Shown here piece after piece: positions 31,447-43,142 of a stretch of DNA of 64,000 bases. Source of the stretch: Halomonas denitrificans (GTDB lineage Bacteria; Pseudomonadota; Gammaproteobacteria; Xanthomonadales; Wenzhouxiangellaceae); assembly GCA_019800895.1 (NCBI GenBank), contig JAHVKF010000002.1:310001-374000 (forward strand), given 5' to 3'. Made by a program: the position numbers and the translations under genes. The notes below the pieces were generated by a model. The model did not search any database and was not told where the DNA came from. It was given only the letters and a program-made list of their open reading frames with translations. Numbering within the stretch: position 1 is the stretch's first letter; each line of letters opens with the position of its first letter.

Positions 31447-32754
31447 TCAGTCGTCGTCCTGCTGCAGCGCGTTCCAGCGCGCGCGGATGCGATCCAGGCC
31501 GAGGTTGCCGCAGCCGCCCAGGGAGACGCGCGCGGCCAGGCTGTCGCCGGGCGATCGTTGTTCGAGCGCGGCAAGTTCGTCGCCGACCCGCCGGTAGGCG
31601 TCGCGGAACGACAGGCCCTCGGCAACCAGTTCGTTGGCGCGGTCGGTCGCGAACTGGGCCGGCGTCACCGCCGCGGCCATTCGCTCGCGGTTCCAGTCCA
31701 GGCCCGCAAGCAGCCCGGGGACCAGGGCCAGGCCCTCGAGCCCGCGCGCGAAGGCCCGCAGGACCGGCGGCTTGGTGTCCTGCAGGTCGCGCTGGTAGCC
31801 CGAGGGCAGCGACAGCACCGATTCCAGCTCGGCCCGCGCGCCGATCACGGTGGCATGCAGCGCGCGCAGCAGTTCGACGGCGTCCGGATTGTGCTTGTTC
31901 GGCATGATCGACGAGCCGGTACAGAACGCGTCCGGGACCCGGGCGAAGTCGAACTCCTGGCTGGCGAACAGGCTCAGGTCCCAGGAAAGGCGCCGCAGGT
32001 CGCCGGTGGCCGCGGAGAGCGCGTCGAGCGCCCGCAGTTCGGCCTTGCCGCGCTGGGCCTGGGCGTTCTGCGGATTGACCACGAGGCGGGCGAAACCCAG
32101 TTCGCGCGCCACGCCGTCGCGGTCCAGCGCCAGGTTGACGCCGAACCCAGAGGCGGTCCCCAGCGGGCTGGCGTTCAGGTGCTCGCCGATCGCCTTCGCC
32201 AGTTCCGCGTCGTCGACGAAGGCCTCGGCGTGGCCGGCCCACCAGAGGCCCAGGGAGCTCGGCATGGCCTGCTGCAGGTGCGTGTGGCCGGGCAACGGCA
32301 CGTCGGCTTCCCGTTCCGCGCGGTCCAGCGCCACATCCGCGATCGCCAGCGCGATTTCGCGCAAGCGATCGAGCCGGTCGAGCAGGTACAGCCTGAGCGC
32401 CACCGCGACCTGGTCGTTGCGCGAGCGCCCGGCGTGAATCCGCTTTCCGGTTTCGCCCAGGCGCTCGGTCAACCAGGTCTCGATCGCCGAGTGGCCGTCC
32501 TCGAACCGCTCGTCGAGCACGAAATCGCCGGCGGCGAAGGCCTCGGCCAGGGCGTCGAGCTCGCGACCGATCGCGCCGGCCTGCTCGTCGGACAGCAGAC
32601 CGATGCGCGCCAGCCCGCGGGCATGGGCGCGACTGGCCCGGATATCGAACGGCAGCAGCTCGCGATCGAGGACCACGTCCTGTCCGGCCAGGAACCGCAT
32701 CACGGCCTCCGGCACCGCCGCACTCGCACTCTTCTTCCAGATCGGCTCGCTCAT
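31447..32754 (-). CDS. argH: Argininosuccinate lyase
   Basis: A 435-residue lyase of the fumarase/aspartase superfamily. Diagnostic motifs are HAGRSRNDQVA, PGHTHLQQAMPSSLG and the signature loop GSSIMPNKHNPD. It splits argininosuccinate into arginine and fumarate, the last step of the pathway. It starts inside the last codon of argC (4-base overlap), so it is the last gene of the argF'-G-E'-B-C-H operon. The order matches Xanthomonas. Length and motifs are normal. Confidence 0.96.
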   Translation of the reverse strand: MSEPIWKKSASAAVPEAVMRFLAGQDVVLDRELLPFDIRASRAHARGLARIGLLSDEQAGAIGRELDALAEAFAAGDFVLDERFEDGHSAIETWLTERLGETGKRIHAGRSRNDQVAVALRLYLLDRLDRLREIALAIADVALDRAEREADVPLPGHTHLQQAMPSSLGLWWAGHAEAFVDDAELAKAIGEHLNASPLGTASGFGVNLALDRDGVARELGFARLVVNPQNAQAQRGKAELRALDALSAATGDLRRLSWDLSLFASQEFDFARVPDAFCTGSSIMPNKHNPDAVELLRALHATVIGARAELESVLSLPSGYQRDLQDTKPPVLRAFARGLEGLALVPGLLAGLDWNRERMAAAVTPAQFATDRANELVAEGLSFRDAYRRVGDELAALEQRSPGDSLAARVSLGGCGNLGLDRIRARWNALQQDDD

Positions 32755-33731
32755 GCAAGGTCCTCCAGTCCGTTCCGTTCAGGCAGGCCGAGCGCGCAGT
32801 TGAGGTTCTGCAATGCCTGGCCGGCCGCACCCTTGAGCAGGTTGTCGAGGACCACCACCCAGGTCGCCCGGTGACCGTCGCGCTCGTCGACGGTGAAGCC
32901 GCCGATCGCCAGGCCGCAGGGGGGCACGGTACCGCAACGGAGGTCGCGCAATTCGGGCACCTCCGCGGCGGTCCGGACCAGCGGCTCGTCCTTGTAGACC
33001 GATGCGAAGCGCTCGCGCAGGCCGTCGGCCGTGACCGGCTCGGTCAGCACCGCCGAGATCGTCAGCGAAATGCCGCGGAAGAACGGCGCGACATGCGGGT
33101 GGAAGCGGACCGGCCGGCCGAGATGGGCACCGATCTCGCGCTCGTGCACATGCCCCGCCAGCGCGTACGGAATCAGGTTGTCCTTCAGCCGATCCGGGTC
33201 GTTGCGCGGCGACGGCGTTCGTCCGGCGCCGCTGTAGCCCGACACGCCGAACACCACCGGCGGCGCGGCCAGCGCATCGCGGACCGGCAGCAGGCCGAAC
33301 TGCGCGCCGGTGGCGTAGCAACCGGGGTTGCTGATGCGCCGGGCGCCGGCCAAAGCGGCGCGATTGAACTCGGTCAGGCCGTAGACCCAGTCGGTGTCGA
33401 AGCGGTGATCGGCGCCGAAGTCGAGGATGACCGCGTCGGGATGCGCGGCTTCGATCGCACCCACCCACGGCGCGCTGGCCCCGTTCGGCACGGCCAGCGC
33501 CCAGACATCGGCGTCGACCTCGGCCACGTCGGCGGGCTCCAGCGCGACGAAGGCCTGCGCGGGATCGGGCCAGCCCTCGACCTCCCCGGCGATCGGCTGT
33601 CCGGCCTGCGCACCGCTGGACGCGACGGCGAGTTCGATCGCCGGATGATCCAGCAGCAAGCGAAGCAGCTCGCGCCCGGTGTAGCCCCGCCCCCCGATCA
33701 GCGCCAGACGATGTTGCTTTCGTTCGATCAT
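32751..33731 (-). CDS. argC: N-acetyl-gamma-glutamyl-phosphate reductase
   Basis: A 326-residue enzyme with the NADP fold (LALIGGRGYTGRELLRLLLDHP), the catalytic cysteine in ISNPGCYATGAQ and substrate residues in GVSGYSGAGRTPS and HPHVAPFFRGI. It reduces N-acetylglutamyl phosphate to the semialdehyde. The start at 33731 gives MIERKQHRLALIGG. It overlaps argH by 4 bases. A 192-base spacer with an inverted repeat element separates it from the upstream argB gene, yet all genes run in the same direction and should be cotranscribed. Confidence 0.95.
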   Translation of the reverse strand: MIERKQHRLALIGGRGYTGRELLRLLLDHPAIELAVASSGAQAGQPIAGEVEGWPDPAQAFVALEPADVAEVDADVWALAVPNGASAPWVGAIEAAHPDAVILDFGADHRFDTDWVYGLTEFNRAALAGARRISNPGCYATGAQFGLLPVRDALAAPPVVFGVSGYSGAGRTPSPRNDPDRLKDNLIPYALAGHVHEREIGAHLGRPVRFHPHVAPFFRGISLTISAVLTEPVTADGLRERFASVYKDEPLVRTAAEVPELRDLRCGTVPPCGLAIGGFTVDERDGHRATWVVVLDNLLKGAAGQALQNLNCALGLPERNGLEDLA

Positions 33732-33756
33732 CGTGCCCGCATCCTCGAGGACCTCT

Positions 33757-33914
33757 TTACCGCAGATGAACGCAGATGAACACAGATTGGAAGGCAACTG
33801 CCGAAGAGCTGCATTGAAGAGCCGACCTCGGGGGGCTGGGCCGGCCGACCGGCGAACAGTTCGAACGGCGGTCCGATTTTCGATCTGCGTCCAACTGCGT
33901 TCATCTGCGGTTCC
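33757..33914. repeat. Inverted-repeat-bounded element with CGCAGATGAA ends, copy 2, inside the arginine operon
   Basis: Left end: three 10-base units CGCAGATGAA, CGCAGATGAA, CACAGATTGG (33761-33790). Right end: the inverted set CGATCTGCGT, CCAACTGCGT, TCATCTGCGG (33881-33910). The 90 bases between contain no gene. The whole unit could fold into a cruciform or an RNA hairpin in the argB-argC spacer. Confidence 0.65.
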
Positions 33915-33923
33915 TTTCGCCTT

Positions 33924-35261
33924 TCAGCACACACTGGCGTTCTCGACCCAGCCCGAGTCGCGGCCGGCGGCGTCGTCGACGAGGGCCGCTCGCTGCTCCG
34001 GCGATTCGATGCCGATCGTGTAGACGACCCAGCCGCCGCGGCGATCGCAGGTGTCGGCCTGTTGAAAGTACCAGCCGGCGATCGGATTGTTGGCCCGGGC
34101 GCGCCAGTACATGGCCGGGCAGCGCGCGCGAAGCGCCTGCCAGAGCGCGGCACCCAGGCCTTCGCCGCGCGCTTCCGGGGTGACCACGATCTTGTCGAGG
34201 TAGGGCACGCCGTCGTGCCCTTCGAGAACCAGCGCCGCGGCACGGCCACTCTCGGCCAGGAACACCCCGAGCTGCTTGCGGCCTTCGAGCCAGTCCGGCC
34301 GCAGTTCGCGGTCGAAGCTGCCTACCAGCAACCGCTCGAAGCCCTCGCGACGGGCGCCCGGGATCGCGTCGAACCATTCGATCGCTTCGCCCTTGCGGAC
34401 CAGCGTGCCGGCACCGGTGTGGGTGAACAGCTCGCGGGTCAGCTTGCCGGCCGAGGTGATCGACACGGAGGCCGACGGCGACAGCGGCTCGAGCATGTCG
34501 CGGATCTGCTGCAGCTTCAACTGCATGCCCGAGTGGACCCAATCCTGGCGAATCAGCGATTCGAAATCGTTCGTCAGGCTGATCGCGGAAATGACCCGCT
34601 GGTCCTCGTCGAGCAGGCCGCCGGTGGGGGTCAGGAAGATGATCTTGTACGGCTTGAGCGCCCAGACCAGTTCCCGCGTGGCGATGTCGGCGTTGATGTT
34701 CATGACCTGGCCGGCGCGGGTCTCGCCAAGGCAGGCCACAACGGGCAGCGCGCCGGCCGACACCGAGCCGCGGATCGAATCGAGGTCCACCGATTGCACC
34801 TGGCCGACCAGGCCGAGCTTCTCGCGATCGGCGAAATCGCATTCGAACACGCCGTGCAGCAGCCCGCGTGCGCGCACGCCATGGCGCTCCAGCGCGTCGA
34901 CCAGCTTCGCGTTCTCGCGGTAGATCACCGGCCGCGCCACGGCCATGACCTCCTCCGTGGTCACCCGGAGGCCGTCGTGCTTCTGCGATTCGATGCCCGC
35001 CTCGGCCAGCGCATCGTCGAGCTGTCGCCCGGCGCCGTGGAGCACGATCGGGTACAGGCCCAGACGATGAAGAAAGGCCAGCGCGGCAACCAGGTCATCG
35101 AGCTGATCGGCCAGGATGCCGCCGCCGACCTTGATCACGGCGAACCGCGTCTCGTTGACGCGCGAGAACTGCTCGAGATATTGCCGCGCCTCGCGCGAGG
35201 AGCCGAGCTGGCCGAGCAGTTCGACGACGGTGGACCGGACGATAGGATGCGCGTCGCTCAT
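33924..35261 (-). CDS. argB: Bifunctional acetylglutamate kinase / N-acetylglutamate synthase (NAGS-K)
   Basis: A 445-residue fusion: an amino-acid-kinase domain (about 35-290: FAVIKVGGGILADQL, VLHGAGRQLDDAL, MNINADIATRELVWAL, PTGGLLDED) and a C-terminal GNAT acetyltransferase domain (about 300-445: EGHDGVPYLDKIVVTPEARGEGLGAALW, YWRARANNPIAGWYFQ). This two-domain form, resembling Xanthomonas and animal enzymes, makes acetylglutamate and phosphorylates it, covering the first two steps. The start at 35261 overlaps the end of argE' by 4 bases. No separate argA or argJ is in the window. Synthase activity is inferred from the fusion, not proven by sequence. Confidence 0.92.
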   Translation of the reverse strand: MSDAHPIVRSTVVELLGQLGSSREARQYLEQFSRVNETRFAVIKVGGGILADQLDDLVAALAFLHRLGLYPIVLHGAGRQLDDALAEAGIESQKHDGLRVTTEEVMAVARPVIYRENAKLVDALERHGVRARGLLHGVFECDFADREKLGLVGQVQSVDLDSIRGSVSAGALPVVACLGETRAGQVMNINADIATRELVWALKPYKIIFLTPTGGLLDEDQRVISAISLTNDFESLIRQDWVHSGMQLKLQQIRDMLEPLSPSASVSITSAGKLTRELFTHTGAGTLVRKGEAIEWFDAIPGARREGFERLLVGSFDRELRPDWLEGRKQLGVFLAESGRAAALVLEGHDGVPYLDKIVVTPEARGEGLGAALWQALRARCPAMYWRARANNPIAGWYFQQADTCDRRGGWVVYTIGIESPEQRAALVDDAAGRDSGWVENASVC

Positions 35262-36391
35262 GGGTCGACGCCCTCGGCTGCACCTTCGACCAGCGCCCGG
35301 TAGTTCGAATACGCCGCATCGAGCTGGTCCAGTTCGACCCACTCGTCGACGATGTGGGCCTGCTCGATGTGTCCGGGCCCGCAGACGAGCGCGTCGAGTC
35401 CGGCCGCGGAGAACAGGGAGGCCTCGGTCCAGAAGTCGACGGACTCGGTGATCGCGAGCCCGTGGCGGTCCGCGAAGGCGCGAGCACCATCGGTGGTCTT
35501 CCCCGCGGCGGGCAGCGGCGGCCCGCTGAACGGAATCTGCCACTCTGCGCGTTCCTGTGCCCCCGCAAGGCCCGCGACCTCGTCGAACAGCGCCTCGTTG
35601 TCGCCGCCCGGTGCGAGCCGGGCGGACCAGTGCAGGTCGCAGCGGTCGGCGATCACGTTGCTCTTGATGCCGCCGGACACGGTGCCGATGTTGAAGCAGG
35701 TCGGGCGGCCCGCGTCGGCTTCCGCGCGGCAGCGGGCGAGCGCGGAGGCCATCCAGCGGCCGGCCGCGTGGACCGCCGAGTCCTCCAGCGCGCGAAACTC
35801 GGACGAGTGTCCGGCAACGCCGCTGAATCGACCCTTCACCGACAGGTAACCGCGATGGGCCAGCACGGCCCGGTTGCCGGTCGGCTCGCAGACCACGGCG
35901 GTCGCATAGCCCTCTGCTCCGCCTGCTCCGATGAAGTTCTTGACGCAGCAACCGCCCGCCCCTTCTTCGTCAGAGGTGAACAGCAGGGCCATCGGCGCTT
36001 CGGTCGTCCGGGCGACCCGGAGCAGCGCCGCGGCAGCGCCCTTGATGTCGCAGCTCCCACGGCCCCAGGCCCGGCCGTCCCGGACCGTGAGCTCGAGCGG
36101 AGGCACCGACCAGCCTTCGCCGACCGGCACCGTGTCGAGGTGGCAGTTGAACAGCACCCGCGGCTCGCCGCGGCGCGCGTGCAGGCTGACGTGACCGTCG
36201 CCGTGATCCACGGTCTCGACCTCGAACCCGTCCGGCAGCGCGTCACGAACGTGCGCGTACATCGGCGAATCCGCCGTGATCGCGCGCGGCGGGTTCTGGC
36301 TGTCGTCGGCGATCAACACCGCCAGATGGCCGAGGATCGCTTCGAGATCGCTGCGGTTGCCGATACCGCTACTCCCGTACCCCACCGTCAT
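35258..36391 (-). CDS. M20 deacetylase, probably N-acetylcitrulline deacetylase (ArgE')
   Basis: A 377-residue M20-family metallohydrolase with the binuclear zinc motifs LFNCHLDTVPVGEGW, GRGSCDIKGAAAALL and TSDEEGAGGCC, and the dimer-domain motif GTVSGGIKSNVIADRC. In Xanthomonas the enzyme at this place removes acetate from N-acetylcitrulline, not from acetylornithine, to feed argininosuccinate synthase. The neighbouring acetylornithine-type transcarbamylase makes that substrate likely here. It overlaps argG (4 bases) and argB (4 bases). Specificity is inferred from context; the family is certain. Confidence 0.88.
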   Translation of the reverse strand: MTVGYGSSGIGNRSDLEAILGHLAVLIADDSQNPPRAITADSPMYAHVRDALPDGFEVETVDHGDGHVSLHARRGEPRVLFNCHLDTVPVGEGWSVPPLELTVRDGRAWGRGSCDIKGAAAALLRVARTTEAPMALLFTSDEEGAGGCCVKNFIGAGGAEGYATAVVCEPTGNRAVLAHRGYLSVKGRFSGVAGHSSEFRALEDSAVHAAGRWMASALARCRAEADAGRPTCFNIGTVSGGIKSNVIADRCDLHWSARLAPGGDNEALFDEVAGLAGAQERAEWQIPFSGPPLPAAGKTTDGARAFADRHGLAITESVDFWTEASLFSAAGLDALVCGPGHIEQAHIVDEWVELDQLDAAYSNYRALVEGAAEGVDP

Positions 36392-37584
36392 TTCGACCGG
36401 ACCTTGGCCGCCAGCGTCGAGGACTGCCCGACCAGCTTGACGAAGCCCTCGGCCTCCTCCGGTGTCCAGCTCGCCGACTGCGCATAGACCGCATCCGGAT
36501 CGGCCAGCGTGTAGGGCGAATCGACCGCCACCGCCAGCAGGCTGCCGCCTTCAGTGGCCAGCCGGACTTCACCTGTCACGAAGCGATTGGCCGATTCCAG
36601 GTAGGCCTCGAGATCGGCCTTGTGCGGCTCGAAGAAGAACCCGGTGTAGACCAGCTCGGCCCAGCGCGCGGCGATCGTGTGTGCGAACTGGTTCTGCAGC
36701 TTGGTCTGGACGCTTTCGCTCAGCGCCCTGTGCGCCGCCATCAGCCCATCGATGCCGGGGCACTCGAACACGATCCGGCCCTTCAAGCCGATCGATACAT
36801 CGCCCGTATAGAGATGACGACCGACGCCCCAGGCGCCGAGTTCGCGGTTCAGGCGCTCCAGCATGACCGGCCCGTCCAGCGTCTCGCCGTTCAGCGTGAC
36901 GGCGCGGCCGGCGTCGAAGCCCAGCGTCCACTCCTGCTGTCCCTCCGGCCATTCGGCGCGCGGGCGACACCACACCCGCGTGTCGTCGGCCGGCGCCTCG
37001 AAGCGATCGATCTCCTGGCCGGAAAGCGTCACGCCCAGCAGGTTCTCGTTGATCGAGTACTTCGAAGACGAGGCAGGCACCTCGACGCCGGCTTCGGCCA
37101 TGAGCTCGAGTTCATGGGCACGTACGTTCGAGGTTTCCCGCTGCAGCTCTCGGATCGGCGCATGGATGAGGTAGTCGCCGAGGCTGCGCACCGACTGGTC
37201 GAAGCGCAGCTGGTCGTTGCCCATGCCGGTGCAGCCGTGGGCGAAACGCTTCGTGCCCAGCCGGTCGGCCAGCTCCAGGCAGCGCTCGACGATTACGTAG
37301 CGGTCCGAGCACAGCATCGGATACTGGCCGAGCATCCGTGCCCCGCTCCACAACAGCGGAACCACGAACTGATCCCACAGCGCCGGTCCCGCGTCGAGCT
37401 CGTGGTGCTCGGCCGCGCCCAGCGATCGCGCACGATCGGCAATCCATCGCCTGTGCTCGGCAGACACGCCGCCGGTATCGACGAAGGCCGTGTGAACCTC
37501 GTAGCCCTGGTTCTTCAGCGCCAGCACGCAGTAGCTGGTGTCGAGGCCGCCGGAGAAGGCGAGGATGATCGATTGCTTGTTCAT
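36388..37584 (-). CDS. argG: Argininosuccinate synthase
   Basis: A 398-residue enzyme joining citrulline and aspartate with ATP. It has the N-type pyrophosphatase motif LAFSGGLDTSYCVLAL, then CTGMGNDQLRFD and KYSINENLLG, the expected ATP, aspartate and citrulline contacts. The length is that of the shorter bacterial group rather than the 447-residue E. coli form. The start at 37584 (MNKQSI) is preceded by an A/T-rich TCCTAAATAT and no strong ribosome site. It follows a 630-base repeat-filled spacer after argF', which is unusual inside an operon, and overlaps argE' by 4 bases. Confidence 0.95.
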   Translation of the reverse strand: MNKQSIILAFSGGLDTSYCVLALKNQGYEVHTAFVDTGGVSAEHRRWIADRARSLGAAEHHELDAGPALWDQFVVPLLWSGARMLGQYPMLCSDRYVIVERCLELADRLGTKRFAHGCTGMGNDQLRFDQSVRSLGDYLIHAPIRELQRETSNVRAHELELMAEAGVEVPASSSKYSINENLLGVTLSGQEIDRFEAPADDTRVWCRPRAEWPEGQQEWTLGFDAGRAVTLNGETLDGPVMLERLNRELGAWGVGRHLYTGDVSIGLKGRIVFECPGIDGLMAAHRALSESVQTKLQNQFAHTIAARWAELVYTGFFFEPHKADLEAYLESANRFVTGEVRLATEGGSLLAVAVDSPYTLADPDAVYAQSASWTPEEAEGFVKLVGQSSTLAAKVRSK

Positions 37585-37639
37585 ATATTTAGGATTCCGG
37601 GTCGTTGCAATGTTCTTGCCTTTCGATGGTTCAATCCGT

Positions 37640-38180
37640 TGAAATTCGTTTCGCCGCTGGCTGCGCCAGCTGATGCGAGTCCCTTTTGTCGCAGCAAAAG
37701 GAACCAAAAATGCTCGTGCCGGGAACGCGCCCGCTACGCGGGTTCCCTCGATTCTCGATCCGCGCGGGGGATTCCGAACTCGCTGCAGTCGCTGCGCTCC
37801 TTTCGCTCAGACATGCGGAATCCCTCCTTCCGCGCGGCCCTGCGAGTCTCGGCGCGTTCCAGGCAGAAGTGACCCAGCGCTGTTTCTTCCGCCATCGCCC
37901 CCAGCCCGCGATCCGGGACGATGGGAGGAAGCAAGCCGTCGAATCCGGCGCGGGTCGGCTCTTGACGTTTCCCGCCGTCAGCGCCGCCGAGAAGCGCAAG
38001 GGCGAGCGGAGAGAGGCCAAAAGGTGTCTGAGCGTAGCGAGTTCTTTTGGCCCCGCTCGCACCGAGCATCGCAGGGAACCCGCGCAGCGGGCGGCGATGT
38101 TCGCGCAGCGGTTTTGGGTACTTTTGACGCCACAAAAGTACCTCGCCATCAGCCTGCGAAGCAGGCGGGCGAAACACCAT
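37640..38180. repeat. Family-1 structured repeat, divergent copy A, between argF' and argG
   Basis: No gene is seen in this spacer (37585-38214). It starts with a hairpin CCTTTTG-TCGCAG-CAAAAGG (37683-37702) and ends with GTACTTTTG-ACGCCA-CAAAAGTAC (about 38118-38141), then CTCGCC and a GGCGAAACACC tail. Copies B, C and D share this architecture, but here loops and outer stem bases differ and most of the interior is unrelated. Several inner palindromes are also visible, such as GAACGCGCCCGCTACGCGGG. It lies within a transcribed operon, so the hairpins should appear in the mRNA. Confidence 0.7.
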
Positions 38181-38214
38181 TGAGCTGAAGCCACCGCTAA
38201 TGCAATGAGCCACA

Positions 38215-39213
38215 TCAACCTCCCATCAACTTCAGCATCAACGCCTTCTGCACATGCAGCCGGTTCTCGGCCTCGTCGATGGCCACGCAGTAATCGGCAT
38301 CCATCACCCCATCGGTGGCCTTGACGTTGCGGCGCAGCGGCAGGCAATGGCTGAAGCGGGCGTTGGCGGTCTTCGCCATCTTGGCCTCGTCGACGATGAA
38401 GTGCCTGTACTTCGCGTTCAGCGCCGACTGCTCGTCCGGCCGTCCGTAGAGCGGCAGGCAGCCCCAGCTCTTCGCATAGACGAAGTCCGCGCCGGTGTAG
38501 GCGTCGTCGATGTCGGTGGTCACGCGAAAGGCTCCGCCCGATGCGGCGGACTGCGCCTCGGCCGCGTCCATGTAGCGCGGATCGAGGCGGTAGGCGTCTT
38601 CGGGAATCAGCAGCGTGACATCCATGCCGAACTTGGTCGCGATCAGCAGGGCGGAATTCGCCACCGCCGTATTCAGGGGCCGCGGATGGTAGGTCCAGGT
38701 CAGCACGAACTTCTTTCCATCCGGTTCGTCGAGGTGATCCTGCACCGCTCGCATCAAGGCCAGCTCCTGGCACGGGTGGACGATCGTTTCCATGTTGATG
38801 ACCGGTACCGTTGCGTGCGCGGCGAGCGCGCGGATCACCCGGTCCTCGCGGTCCACCGACCAGTCGCGGAACTGCGGGAAGGCGCGAATGGCGAGCGCAT
38901 CGCAATAGCGCGACAGCACGCCGGCGACTTCCGCGATGTGCTCCTCGGCCGCCCCGTCCATGACCACACCGGGTTCGAATTCGATGCCCCAGGCCCCCTT
39001 GCCCGGTTCGAGGACGACCGCGTGCGCGCCGAGCTGGTAGGCGCCGATCTCGAAGGACGAACGGGTCCGCAGCGAGGGGTTGAGGAACAGCAACGCGATC
39101 GTCCTGCCGGCCAGGTCGCCTCGAACCGGCTGCCGGCGGATCTCGTCGGCCACGTCGATCAACGACTGCAGCTCTTCGCGTGAGTGGTCTTCGGTGGTCA
39201 GGAATTGCTTCAT
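38215..39213 (-). CDS. argF': N-acetylornithine carbamoyltransferase (AOTCase, ArgF')
   Basis: A 332-residue transcarbamylase close to the Xanthomonas acetylornithine enzyme. The carbamoyl-phosphate loop NPSLRTRSSFEIGAYQLG, the segment MDGAAEEHIAEVA with the Glu that separates acetylornithine from succinylornithine enzymes, WTYHPRPLNTAVANSALL, and HCLPLRRNVKATDGVMD with the lysine known to be carboxylated in Xanthomonas are all present. Ordinary ornithine transcarbamylase lacks these. It makes N-acetylcitrulline from N-acetylornithine. ATG at 39213 was chosen; a GTG 6 bases upstream is possible. An intrinsic terminator lies only 18 bases before the start and appears to form an attenuator. Confidence 0.92.
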   Translation of the reverse strand: MKQFLTTEDHSREELQSLIDVADEIRRQPVRGDLAGRTIALLFLNPSLRTRSSFEIGAYQLGAHAVVLEPGKGAWGIEFEPGVVMDGAAEEHIAEVAGVLSRYCDALAIRAFPQFRDWSVDREDRVIRALAAHATVPVINMETIVHPCQELALMRAVQDHLDEPDGKKFVLTWTYHPRPLNTAVANSALLIATKFGMDVTLLIPEDAYRLDPRYMDAAEAQSAASGGAFRVTTDIDDAYTGADFVYAKSWGCLPLYGRPDEQSALNAKYRHFIVDEAKMAKTANARFSHCLPLRRNVKATDGVMDADYCVAIDEAENRLHVQKALMLKLMGG

Positions 39214-39231
39214 CGGCACTCTCGTTCGGGC

Positions 39232-39315
39232 AAAAAAAAACCCAGCCGGTGGGGGCTGGGTTCGGAAACGATTCTTGGTTCGAACGCGGGTCAGGCGTCA
39301 GGTTTCCGTCCAGCC
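39232..39315 (-). promoter_or_regulatory. Arginine-operon attenuator: terminator plus competing antiterminator
   Basis: On the minus strand the terminator is AACCCAGCC / GGCTGGGTT (39254-39262 and 39239-39247), a perfect 9-bp stem with a 6-base loop followed by more than seven T (39232-39240). Its 5' arm is also complementary to upstream sequence. GGCTGG-A-CGGAAAC (39315-39302) can pair with GTTTCCG-AAC-CCAGCC (39269-39254): 6 plus 7 base pairs around a 1x3 internal loop. The two structures exclude each other. The upstream arm lies in the last codons of the arginine-rich leader frame, so a ribosome at its stop would cover it and one stalled at the Arg run would leave it free. Confidence 0.85.
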
Positions 39316-39393
39316 AGGGTGCACGCAGCGGCGACGTCGCGACGATTCGCGGCGCAGCGTCTGCGGGGCTCGGGTGCGGGAGGAACGGTTCAT
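39298..39393 (-). CDS. Arginine-rich leader peptide of the arg operon
   Basis: A 31-codon frame (ATG at 39393, TGA at 39300-39298) in the 268-base leader of argF'. Nine codons encode arginine: 3, 6, 8, 14, 15 and the run 19-22 (CGA CGT CGC CGC). Codons 27-31 (GGC TGG ACG GAA ACC) form the upstream arm of the antiterminator. The ribosome site is weak: only AGG very close to the ATG; an in-frame TTG 18 bases upstream is an alternative. It fits a sensing peptide, not a functional protein. An inverted repeat GTGCGAA-N4-TTCGCAC (39460-39477) lies just after the upstream gene's stop codon. Confidence 0.8.
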   Translation of the reverse strand: MNRSSRTRAPQTLRRESSRRRRCVHPGWTET

Positions 39394-39481
39394 GCCTGCA
39401 GGGTGCCACAAGCCGACGATGCAGACAAGCGGTTCGAGCGCTCGTTTCGGTGGTGCTCCGTGCGAAGCGATTCGCACTTCG

Positions 39482-41764
39482 TCACTGCACGGCAATCGCT
39501 GTCCGCTCTGCCCACGGGCGGTGGCCGGCCAGGATCTCGCGGATGGCATCCGGGCCGGAGGCTTCGAGAAACAGGTAGCCCTGGCCGAGCGGACAGCCGT
39601 AACTCCGCAGCGCTTCGAGTTGGGCCGGATGCTCGATGCCCTCTGCCACGGTGTCCAGGCGCAATGCGCTCGACAGGTTGCAGATGGTCCGGGTGATCGC
39701 CTGGTCATCGCGGTCGATCTCCAGGTCCCGAACGAATCCCTGGTCGATCTTGATCGTCGAAACCGGGAAGTTCTTGATGTAGGCCATGGACGAATAGCCG
39801 ACCCCGAAATCGTCGACGACCAGCTTGAGACCGATCTCGTCGAGCTGATCGAGCACCGCGCGGTTTCGCGCCAGGTTCTCGATCAGCACGTCCTCGGTAA
39901 TCTCGAGATGGACCTGGTCCGGCCGCAGGCCGGCCCGCTCGAGCATGTCCTGGAGCTCCGGCACGAACCGGGGTTCGCGGAATTGCGCACCGGAAATGTT
40001 GACGGCCAGCCATGGTCCGTGGCCGAACTCGCGGCACCAGCCGGCCAGGTCCTGGAAGGCCTGCCGAACCGCGAGCTGGCTGAGTCGGTGGACCAGGCCG
40101 GTTTCTTCCGCGACGCGGATGAAGTCACGCGGCGGGATGACCAGGCCGTCGGGCTGGGACCAGCGAAGCAGGGCTTCCACACCCCGCATCTGCAGGCTGC
40201 GCAGATCGACGATCGGCTGGTAGACGACCTGGAACTGGCCGGAGTCGATCGCGCTGCGGATATCCCGGCTCATGACCAGGCGCTGCTGCACGGCCCGGAA
40301 CATCTCCGGGGTGAACTGGGCCACCTGGTTCCGACCGAGATGCTTGGCGCGGAACAACGCGGCGTCGGCGTTCTGCACCAGCTCCGACGGCGACTGCCGA
40401 CCGTCGTAGAGCGCGAAGCCGATGCTCGCGGTGACGAACAGCTGGTGCTCGTCGAGCTGGAAGGCGTCGTTGAGGCAGCCGAGCAGGCCCTCGGCCAGGC
40501 GGCGGACGCCGCCGCCGGTGGCCCGCTCGGCGACGATCAGGAATTCGTCTCCACCGAGGCGACCGAGCCGGTCCGCCGGGTCCAGCGCGTCCCCGATCCG
40601 GCCCGGAAGCTGGCGCAGCAGCTCGTCGCCGAGGTGATGCCCCAGCGTCTCGTTGATGTCCTTGAACCGGTCCAGATCGAGATACAGCACGGCCAGTGCG
40701 CGGCCGGGCGTGAACCGCTGCAGCGCCTGGGAAAGCGATTCCAGCATGCCCTGCCGATTGGGCAGGCCGGTCAGCGAATCATGGGTCAGCAGGAACTCGA
40801 GCTCCTGCTCGGCCAGCTCGCGATCGTGGATCTCGTCGTTCAGCGTCCGGTTGGCCTGCTCCAGGCCCTGCGCCTGGCGCGCGGCGGCCATCGCCAGCAG
40901 CGCGGCGACCGAGACCAGCACGGCCAGCAACGAGCCGAGTCCGAGCACGGCCTGCGGCAGACCGGTGGCCAGCGCATCGCGCGTAGCGCGGCGCAGGGCG
41001 ATGTCGAACTCGAAGGTGCTCTGGCCGTCGTCGAGCTGCACCGCGAGACTGCGCACGAAGGATCGCGATCGATCGACATCGCGGGCGCCCGGCGGAACCA
41101 CGAACCGGGTGCCGGCGAAGCGGCCCTCGAGAACGACGTCGTCGAGGTAGTAGGCATCGAGAGCGGCCGCGACGGCCTCCGGCACCACCAGCACCGACGC
41201 GAGCCAGCGGACCGAGTCGTTCGCACCGCCGGCGCGGGACTCGATCGGCGTCATGAACAGCAGACCGGCCTGGCCGGTGCCGACCAGCAGCGGCTCGAGC
41301 ACCATCGTTCCGGTTCCCGAGTCGGCCGCGGCCAGCCGTCGGCGAGCGCCGGTACCCACCGGCAGAGGCTGGCCTTCCTCCAGGCGCGCTGCCGTCCGAC
41401 TCGCCAGCCAGCGAACTCGCAGATCGGCGTCGACCACCGCCAGCAGGTAGTAGTAGGGAAAATCGGCCATCAGCCGTTGCGCATCGGCGATCCAGGCCGC
41501 TCGATCGGGGGCGCTGCGCTGCGACAACCGGAGCGCCATGCGCTCGAGAATGGCGGACTGCTCGGCTGCGGCTCGTTCGAGGTCGGCCTCGACCTGCGCG
41601 ACGATCGCGTCGAGGTGCCGATCCAGTGCGCGGGTCTCGGCCCGTTCCAGGGTGGCGTGGAGGCCGGCGGTCAGACCCAGCAGGACGACCAGCAGGAGCA
41701 CCGCGATGGACCAGGAGAACCAGTTCGCGGCAGACCAGAATCCGGTGTGCGGCCGGGGCGCCAT
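39482..41764 (-). CDS. Membrane-bound GGDEF-EAL cyclic-di-GMP protein
   Basis: A 760-residue protein with two membrane spans (about 14-36 and 270-292) around a periplasmic sensor domain with no family I recognise, then GGDEF (404-408, intact) and EAL (530-532, intact) domains. EAL catalytic motifs are complete: VNISGAQF, HLEITEDVL, VVDDFGVGYSS, TIKIDQGFV and AEGIEH, so phosphodiesterase activity is likely. The RxxD inhibitory site upstream of GGDEF is not present. Net activity cannot be predicted. The start at 41764 precedes the first membrane span; earlier in-frame residues overlap the divergent gene. The arg leader follows 88 bases downstream. Confidence 0.88.
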   Translation of the reverse strand: MAPRPHTGFWSAANWFSWSIAVLLLVVLLGLTAGLHATLERAETRALDRHLDAIVAQVEADLERAAAEQSAILERMALRLSQRSAPDRAAWIADAQRLMADFPYYYLLAVVDADLRVRWLASRTAARLEEGQPLPVGTGARRRLAAADSGTGTMVLEPLLVGTGQAGLLFMTPIESRAGGANDSVRWLASVLVVPEAVAAALDAYYLDDVVLEGRFAGTRFVVPPGARDVDRSRSFVRSLAVQLDDGQSTFEFDIALRRATRDALATGLPQAVLGLGSLLAVLVSVAALLAMAAARQAQGLEQANRTLNDEIHDRELAEQELEFLLTHDSLTGLPNRQGMLESLSQALQRFTPGRALAVLYLDLDRFKDINETLGHHLGDELLRQLPGRIGDALDPADRLGRLGGDEFLIVAERATGGGVRRLAEGLLGCLNDAFQLDEHQLFVTASIGFALYDGRQSPSELVQNADAALFRAKHLGRNQVAQFTPEMFRAVQQRLVMSRDIRSAIDSGQFQVVYQPIVDLRSLQMRGVEALLRWSQPDGLVIPPRDFIRVAEETGLVHRLSQLAVRQAFQDLAGWCREFGHGPWLAVNISGAQFREPRFVPELQDMLERAGLRPDQVHLEITEDVLIENLARNRAVLDQLDEIGLKLVVDDFGVGYSSMAYIKNFPVSTIKIDQGFVRDLEIDRDDQAITRTICNLSSALRLDTVAEGIEHPAQLEALRSYGCPLGQGYLFLEASGPDAIREILAGHRPWAERTAIAVQ

Positions 41765-41879
41765 CGCTGCTAGCGCGCCGCGCGGGTGGTCGGGATGTGG
41801 GTCGGGGACATGGGCCGGCGGGTACGGAAAGACCGGAGTATAGCCGACCGCTGCCGGCCGGCCCCGGTACACTCGCGGC

Positions 41880-42326
41880 ATGAAGGACTGGTTCGGCAAT
41901 CGCCCGGCTGCACTGCTGATCGGGCTGGTGCTCGGGGTCGCGCTGCAGGAGACCCTGCGCACCGCAATCGATGCGTTCGTGCTGCTCGGCCAGCTCGGCC
42001 CGCGGCTGGTCGCGGGCCCGGAACGGATCGGCCCGACCGTGCTGCTGATCCTGATGCTCACGGCATTGCTCGGCGGCGCCGTTGCCGGACTGGTGACCGC
42101 ACTCCTGTCCGGCGGACGGCGCACGGCAATCGCGGCGGGCGTGCTGCTTGCCGTACCGGCAGTGGCGCTGGCCGCGATCGCGCTCGAAGGCAGTGCACTG
42201 GCCGCCCTGCATGCCGTGCCGCCGGTCTGCGGAAGTGCGCTGGGCGCCCGACTCGCGCTGGGCGAGGAGGGCTGGGCGACGGCGACGCGAGCCCGACGCC
42301 GCGCGCGGCCGACCCGCAGCGAGTAG
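41880..42326 (+). CDS. Hypothetical four-helix membrane protein
   Basis: A 148-residue protein with about four hydrophobic segments (11-27, 55-77, 84-103 and a weaker one at 107-125) and a basic, Arg-rich C terminus (RARRRARPTRSE). I do not recognise the family. It lies 12 bases upstream of tatD on the same strand, so the two may be cotranscribed. The start at 41880 is the first ATG after the divergent GGDEF-EAL gene. Coding is supported by its position, length and membrane pattern, not by similarity. Confidence 0.6.
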   Translation: MKDWFGNRPAALLIGLVLGVALQETLRTAIDAFVLLGQLGPRLVAGPERIGPTVLLILMLTALLGGAVAGLVTALLSGGRRTAIAAGVLLAVPAVALAAIALEGSALAALHAVPPVCGSALGARLALGEEGWATATRARRRARPTRSE

Positions 42327-42338
42327 ACTCCTGCGCCC

Positions 42339-43142
<804 letters not shown>

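Follow-up and report, generated by a model that had tools for sequence, protein, structure and literature searches.

How is an arginine operon controlled in a genome that has no arginine repressor? The window, by which we mean the whole 64,000-nucleotide stretch of DNA analysed, carries on its minus strand the operon argF'-G-E'-B-C-H. Its first gene, argF' (38215..39213), encodes N-acetylornithine carbamoyltransferase (NF003384, 519 bits, cut-off 288; PDB 3kzc). The others are argG (36388..37584; argininosuccinate synthase; best model NF003385, 562.7 bits, just under the curated cut-off of 603), argE' (35258..36391; acetylornithine deacetylase family; NF006439, 359 bits, cut-off 345), argB (33924..35261, start approximate; a long-type acetylglutamate kinase resembling the Xanthomonas NAGS-kinase fusion; NF003387, 537.5 bits, cut-off 426), argC (32751..33797; TIGR01850, 262.6 bits, cut-off 233.6), and argH (31447..32754; TIGR00838, 293.9 bits, cut-off 279.5). 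The initial annotation read the region upstream of argF' as an arginine-sensing attenuator, and proposed a search of related genomes for argR. Among 151 genomes of the order, a search with PF01316 identified ArgR in 8, every one a member of family f11; in a subset of 61 genomes PF02863 agreed. Neither domain was detected in the window's genome (G000) or in relatives outside f11, while the E. coli and B. subtilis controls were positive. The f11 genomes have ArgR and no attenuator, and their argF is an ordinary carbamoyltransferase, ∼40% identical.

We consider it highly probable, from the comparisons described below, that the operon is controlled by a ribosome-mediated transcription attenuator which reads the supply of charged arginyl-tRNA. 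Sequence comparison establishes the parts of the device, their conservation, a three-way covariation, a fixed geometry, and the lack of ArgR in these genomes. The mechanism would be classical; as far as we know, what is new is that arginine is the amino acid used, that the device apparently replaced ArgR, and that its form is predicted to be leaderless and on by default.

The leader ORF lies on the minus strand at 39298..39393, with its ATG at 39393 and a TGA stop at 39298-39300, and encodes the 31-residue peptide MNRSSRTRAPQTLRRESSRRRRCVHPGWTET. As annotated, nine of its codons are Arg codons, four of them in a run (CGA CGT CGC CGC, codons 19-22, 39328..39339), the putative sensing codons. 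Short Arg-rich frames are common in this G+C-rich window, where 9 of 171 ATG frames of 20 to 60 amino acids have at least 29% Arg, and the leader frame stays open upstream of 39393 as far as 39708, so that the evidence from a single genome is modest. The homologous or analogous Arg-rich leaders of relatives change this: given conservation across the order, a chance origin of the leader can be dismissed. The start at 39393 is assigned from comparison and from a predicted promoter. A large GGDEF/EAL-looking (cyclic-di-GMP) protein is encoded upstream on the same strand (39482-42520), ending 89 bp before the leader ATG.

Between the leader and argF' is an intrinsic terminator (39232..39262, minus strand), identified by sequence, folding, and alignment of relatives. 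It has the layout AACCCAGCC-CCCACC-GGCTGGGTT, a perfect 9-bp stem followed by nine T, and ends 18 nt before the argF' ATG at 39213; it is one of two strong terminators on the minus strand of the window. Pairing analysis, alignment, and folding also define an antiterminator. Its 5' strand, GGCTGG-A-CGGAAAC (39302..39315), consists of the last leader codons, and its 3' strand, GTTTCCG-AAC-CCAGCC (39254..39269), includes the CCAGCC that doubles as the terminator 5' arm; the two strands form 6 + 7 = 13 bp. Both structures are present as the initial annotation described them. RNA folded only up to the terminator 5' arm gave exactly the 13-bp antiterminator, and the antiterminator region alone was more stable than 194 of 200 shuffles (z = −2.3). 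With a ribosome placed at codon 22, the forced terminator (−27.9 kcal/mol) and the forced antiterminator (−27.2 kcal/mol) were nearly equal in energy. An Rfam scan gave no family above its gathering score. The best match, RF02278 over the terminator (23 bits, gathering score 50), was rejected as evidence for an sRNA, being below threshold and restricted to the terminator region.

Conservation was assessed in argF' upstream regions from 113 genomes of the order, counting an Arg-rich leader followed by a terminator at 10 to 60 nt. The arrangement was found in 98 of the 113 regions, 6 of them counted from the sequences themselves or from covariance-model matches adjoining argF', and in 99 if G028 is included, where leader and terminator are visible in the sequence and were missed by a stricter script. 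It was present in every sampled genome of f2 (21/21; probably Xanthomonadaceae), f3 (3/3), f4 (7/7), f5 (3/3), f7 (2/2), f8 (22/22), f10 (1/1), and f12 (19/19; probably Rhodanobacteraceae), and in 10/11 of f9, which includes Marinicella (11/11 with G028). The window's own family, f1 (Wenzhouxiangellaceae), scored 10/23. The sole ArgR-less sampled family without the arrangement is f6 (0/1), which is represented by a single genome. The locus L159, labelled Rhodanobacteraceae, has a leader of the f12 type, and the closest named record, Wenzhouxiangella sp. XN79A, whose ArgF' is 91% identical, has the leader MNVSARRTVVRVLRRELPRRRRCAQPGWTET. Arg runs are retained in relatives despite drift of the leader sequence; loss of the Arg run or of the alternative stem, the outcome that the initial annotation had named as speaking against its reading, did not occur.

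Four of the 13 f1 genomes with no unit at argF' have leader, antiterminator, and terminator at another arginine gene, before argG in G029, G079, and G099 and before an argA/B fusion in G009, with leaders such as MIEAIAHAGIDSPRPGRLPRRPRRVRYSGRGVH. A complete attenuator was not found in 9 of the 23 f1 genomes, either at argF' or at other arginine genes. In two f1 genomes, G124 (L003) and G139 (L005), a terminator is retained near argF' and an Arg-rich leader was not found; these terminators are possibly remnants of a lost attenuator. Some relatives have their attenuator exactly between argF' and argG, but no second attenuator was found in that gap of ∼630 bp in the window (37585-38214). The gap contains 21-nt inverted repeats at 37728-37748 and 38073-38093.

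The R1 covariance model, run on the genome of the window, had one clear match (E = 5e-7, the next best being at 0.01), and a covariance model from the leaders had matches in 128 of 151 genomes of the order, although at E = 0.001 some of the weaker ones were ordinary terminators. Matches in f11 were at chance level at best (one genome, E = 1e-3). Inspection of the best matches in a class sample of 369 genomes yielded no real instance outside the order. Four candidates from there (L241, L242, L243, and L245) look like ordinary gene-end terminators, not attenuators, so the device is not demonstrated beyond the order; candidates L232 to L240, L244, and L246, from inside it, are not arginine attenuators.

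The pairing scheme is supported by covariation in an alignment of 51 leaders. For the terminator, 99.1% of cells were paired and four pairs showed double changes, values above all or nearly all shuffles. For the antiterminator, 94.9% of cells were paired; it exceeded shuffles in percentage paired, in doubly changed cells, and in covariation score, but not in the number of pairs with a double change or of further pair types, because only one or two columns vary. At the key antiterminator pair we counted UA in 37 leaders, CG in 11, and UG in 3, and at the terminator pair that shares its column AU in 37, GC in 12, and GU in 2. The two pairs shift together, so that three strands covary, which bears out the expectation in the initial annotation that both stems would covary in relatives. 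More distant versions of the pairing are GCCAGG/CCTGGC in Marinicella relatives and, in Marinicella itself, TCTTTGGCT facing the arm-plus-loop sequence GGCCAAAGA. Over 112 nonredundant leaders, the duplex between leader tail and terminator arm averaged −18.3 kcal/mol, compared with −12.9 kcal/mol for dinucleotide-shuffled tails. Swapping arms between families gave −15.9 kcal/mol, a modest difference from the value with the leader's own arm, since the same core is common to many families.

The position of the antiterminator relative to the leader is also constrained. It straddles the leader stop codon: in 106 of 110 leaders its core falls between −24 and +18 relative to the stop. Counted from the first base of the last clustered Arg codon, it begins a median of 20 nt downstream (quartiles, 14 to 21). 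A ribosome covers ∼15 nt ahead of its A site. We simulated folding with the ribosome at different positions in 112 leaders. With a ribosome at the first Arg codon of the run and RNA up to the terminator 5' arm, the antiterminator formed in 111; when the intervening sequence was shuffled as a control, it formed in 51%. With the ribosome at the stop codon, the terminator formed in 111. With no ribosome the antiterminator formed in 64, the window's leader among them. Folding of both states thus reproduced the classical geometry claimed at the outset, in which a stall frees the antiterminator and arrival at the stop yields the terminator.

The initial annotation saw two weak points, a poor ribosome site for the leader and the lack of a clear protector hairpin. 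The poor site has a likely explanation. Relatives share a promoter-like pattern of TTG, a 17-nt spacer, a −10 element, and the leader ATG, which in the window corresponds to a predicted −35 hexamer TTGTCT (39423..39428, minus strand) and a predicted −10 hexamer CACCCT (39400..39405, minus strand). The latter is a weak match that ends 6 to 7 nt before the leader ATG; at the homologous place relatives have CAGATT, CAAATT, or TAAATT. The pattern TTG-N(16-18)-[TC]A...T was found in all 10 nonredundant f1 leaders and in 14 of 22 f8 leaders, nearly always with a spacer of 17 and ending 5 to 8 nt before an in-frame leader start; in the control it occurred at 0.85% per position. A plain sigma-70 consensus scan found nothing. 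From the shared pattern the leader mRNA is predicted to be leaderless, transcription probably starting at the ATG, which would account for the absent ribosome site. As for the protector, folding revealed none in the window, and its family has no conserved one, so this observation stands for the window; Xanthomonadaceae-like leaders, however, show a candidate. In 17 of 20 f2 leaders a hairpin that would hide the antiterminator strand can be folded just past the Arg run, in the form CCGG...CCC / GGGT...CCGG or CCGTT / AACGG. Most of these folds are not beyond shuffles, and the case for a protector in f2 is suggestive only.

We infer the response to arginine, the transcription start, and the order of events as follows. 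RNA polymerase would start at the leader ATG or no more than a few nucleotides from it, and a ribosome would then translate the Arg-rich leader. When charged tRNA-Arg is scarce, the ribosome would wait in the Arg run and leave GGCTGG..., ∼15 to 20 nt ahead, free to pair with the nascent terminator 5' arm, allowing read-through into argF'-G-E'-B-C-H. When arginine is plentiful, the ribosome would reach the stop codon and cover the antiterminator strand; the terminator would form, and transcription would end 18 nt before argF'. Since the window has no protector of the antiterminator strand, an untranslated leader should leave the operon on, unlike that of trp.

Codon choice in the leaders is consistent with sensing through tRNA. 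CGU, CGC, and CGA together make up 90% of leader Arg codons but 63% of those in the relatives' argF' genes (p = 6e-29), and CGA alone accounts for 28% in leaders versus 7% in argF', a fourfold enrichment. A single tRNA, with anticodon ICG, decodes all three codons; its decoding of CGA is poor, and this would make the sensing of arginine sharper. A base-pairing constraint could contribute to the avoidance of CGG. The peptide itself may also be constrained. Across 46 leaders of the f2, f3, f4, and f12 type the sequence MTSRARR does not vary, although 20 DNA versions, differing only synonymously, encode it. These leaders were chosen by the motif but are essentially all that those families have, which makes selection on the peptide likely in them.

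Such invariance, which extends to the non-Arg residues M, T, S, and A, exceeds what pure codon sensing needs. We have therefore kept the alternative of an arrest peptide, in which arginine or a related metabolite would bind the ribosome along with the nascent chain and so stall it, as in the SpeFL-ornithine system, in place of a wait for tRNA-Arg; Arg-rich leader ORFs with other regulatory logic do exist, such as speF orf34 (PMC6386406). This we judge quite unlikely: the codon bias points to tRNA supply, and in the rest of the order the leader peptides share little beyond an Arg run (RRRR, RRLRRP, VVVRRRRP). Moreover, a stall in the Arg run frees the antiterminator, so a stall at high arginine would turn on an operon for which there was then no need. 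A combined form, in which an order-wide, leaderless, default-on attenuator replaced ArgR and in Xanthomonadaceae and Rhodanobacteraceae became partly a sensor of the nascent peptide MTSRARR, joining codon sensing to arrest, is a speculative and rather doubtful extension.

It is very unlikely that antitermination responds to the general speed of translation or transcription, through slow CGA codons or lost coupling, and not to arginine specifically. The enrichment of the poorly decoded CGA and the antiterminator predicted in 64 of 112 leaders with no ribosome would fit such a sensor, which would, however, need neither of two features of the system: an Arg-rich leader in every case and, without exception, an arginine gene as the target (argF', argG, or argA/B). 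The frequency of short Arg-rich frames in the window and the weak RF02278 match are what one would expect if the hairpin were the terminator of the upstream gene or the end of an sRNA, and the Arg-rich frame a by-product of high G+C content. This is contradicted by the covariation of three strands, by the fixed geometry, and by the relatives in which the entire device has moved to a place before argG or argA/B, and it has almost no probability in our estimation. We thus favor attenuation through charged tRNA-Arg.

The proposed device resembles the trp, his, leu, thr, ilv, and phe attenuators of Proteobacteria in its leader ORF with many codons for the amino acid that the operon makes, in an antiterminator and terminator that share an arm, with the stop codon at the antiterminator strand, and in an intrinsic terminator ahead of the first structural gene. 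It differs in sensing arginine, in genomes without ArgR, and in being predicted leaderless in several families and without a protector in the window. To our knowledge, arginine is not usually listed among the amino acids whose biosynthetic operons have leader-peptide attenuators. In fungi, the arginine attenuator peptide, encoded upstream, lowers arginine-gene expression at high arginine; that is eukaryotic translational control by an arrest peptide, and no transcription terminator is involved. ArgR acts on the same genes in response to the same physiological signal (PMC5343134), but is a DNA-binding repressor and, among these genomes, is confined to f11, where the attenuator is absent. The speF leader orf34/SpeFL of Salmonella and E. 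coli is also a short ORF with consecutive Arg codons that tie ribosome progress to arginine supply; it serves polyamine synthesis, in another gene and lineage, and acts by way of Rho, of translation, and of a stability that depends on RNase G, with no use of an intrinsic terminator (PMC6386406). The uORFC-8-2 motif of cysS in Rhodobacterales is, like ours, a comparative prediction of ribosome-mediated attenuation, in which two codons for the sensed amino acid are conserved; that amino acid is cysteine, however, and the gene is a tRNA synthetase gene of Alphaproteobacteria (PMC8632094). The main text of a terminator survey mentions no arginine gene (PMC2965389). The open literature describes attenuators for other amino acids, and our search of it turned up none that is ribosome-mediated and controls an operon for arginine biosynthesis; subscription journals were mostly outside the search, and an earlier description is possible.

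If correct, attenuation would answer how arginine synthesis is controlled throughout an ArgR-less order to which Xanthomonas-like and Lysobacter-like bacteria of plants and soil belong, and would show one regulatory principle in the place of another that is lacking. It makes a clear prediction, the use of one Arg isoacceptor, and the versions of the pairing, with or without a protector and leaderless or not, form a natural series of switch variants for testing models of attenuation.

Several loci depart from the common pattern. No argF' match was found in several near-complete f9 genomes (G008, G036, G043, G050, G071, G098, G103, G118, and G138), which are possibly arginine auxotrophs or use a different pathway. 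Relatives of argF' with 61 to 66% identity occur at L140, L157, L164, and L168, in metagenome-assembled genomes labelled Phycisphaerales, Polyangia, and Planctomycetaceae; they have no recognisable attenuator, and their occurrence suggests gene transfer or a binning error. Upstream of argF' at L048 (G007), an identical leader, MKNVMGNSIFPGRRARRTRRPLLAG, is present twice together with its promoter, at a distance of 186 bp; the leader unit has apparently been duplicated in tandem.
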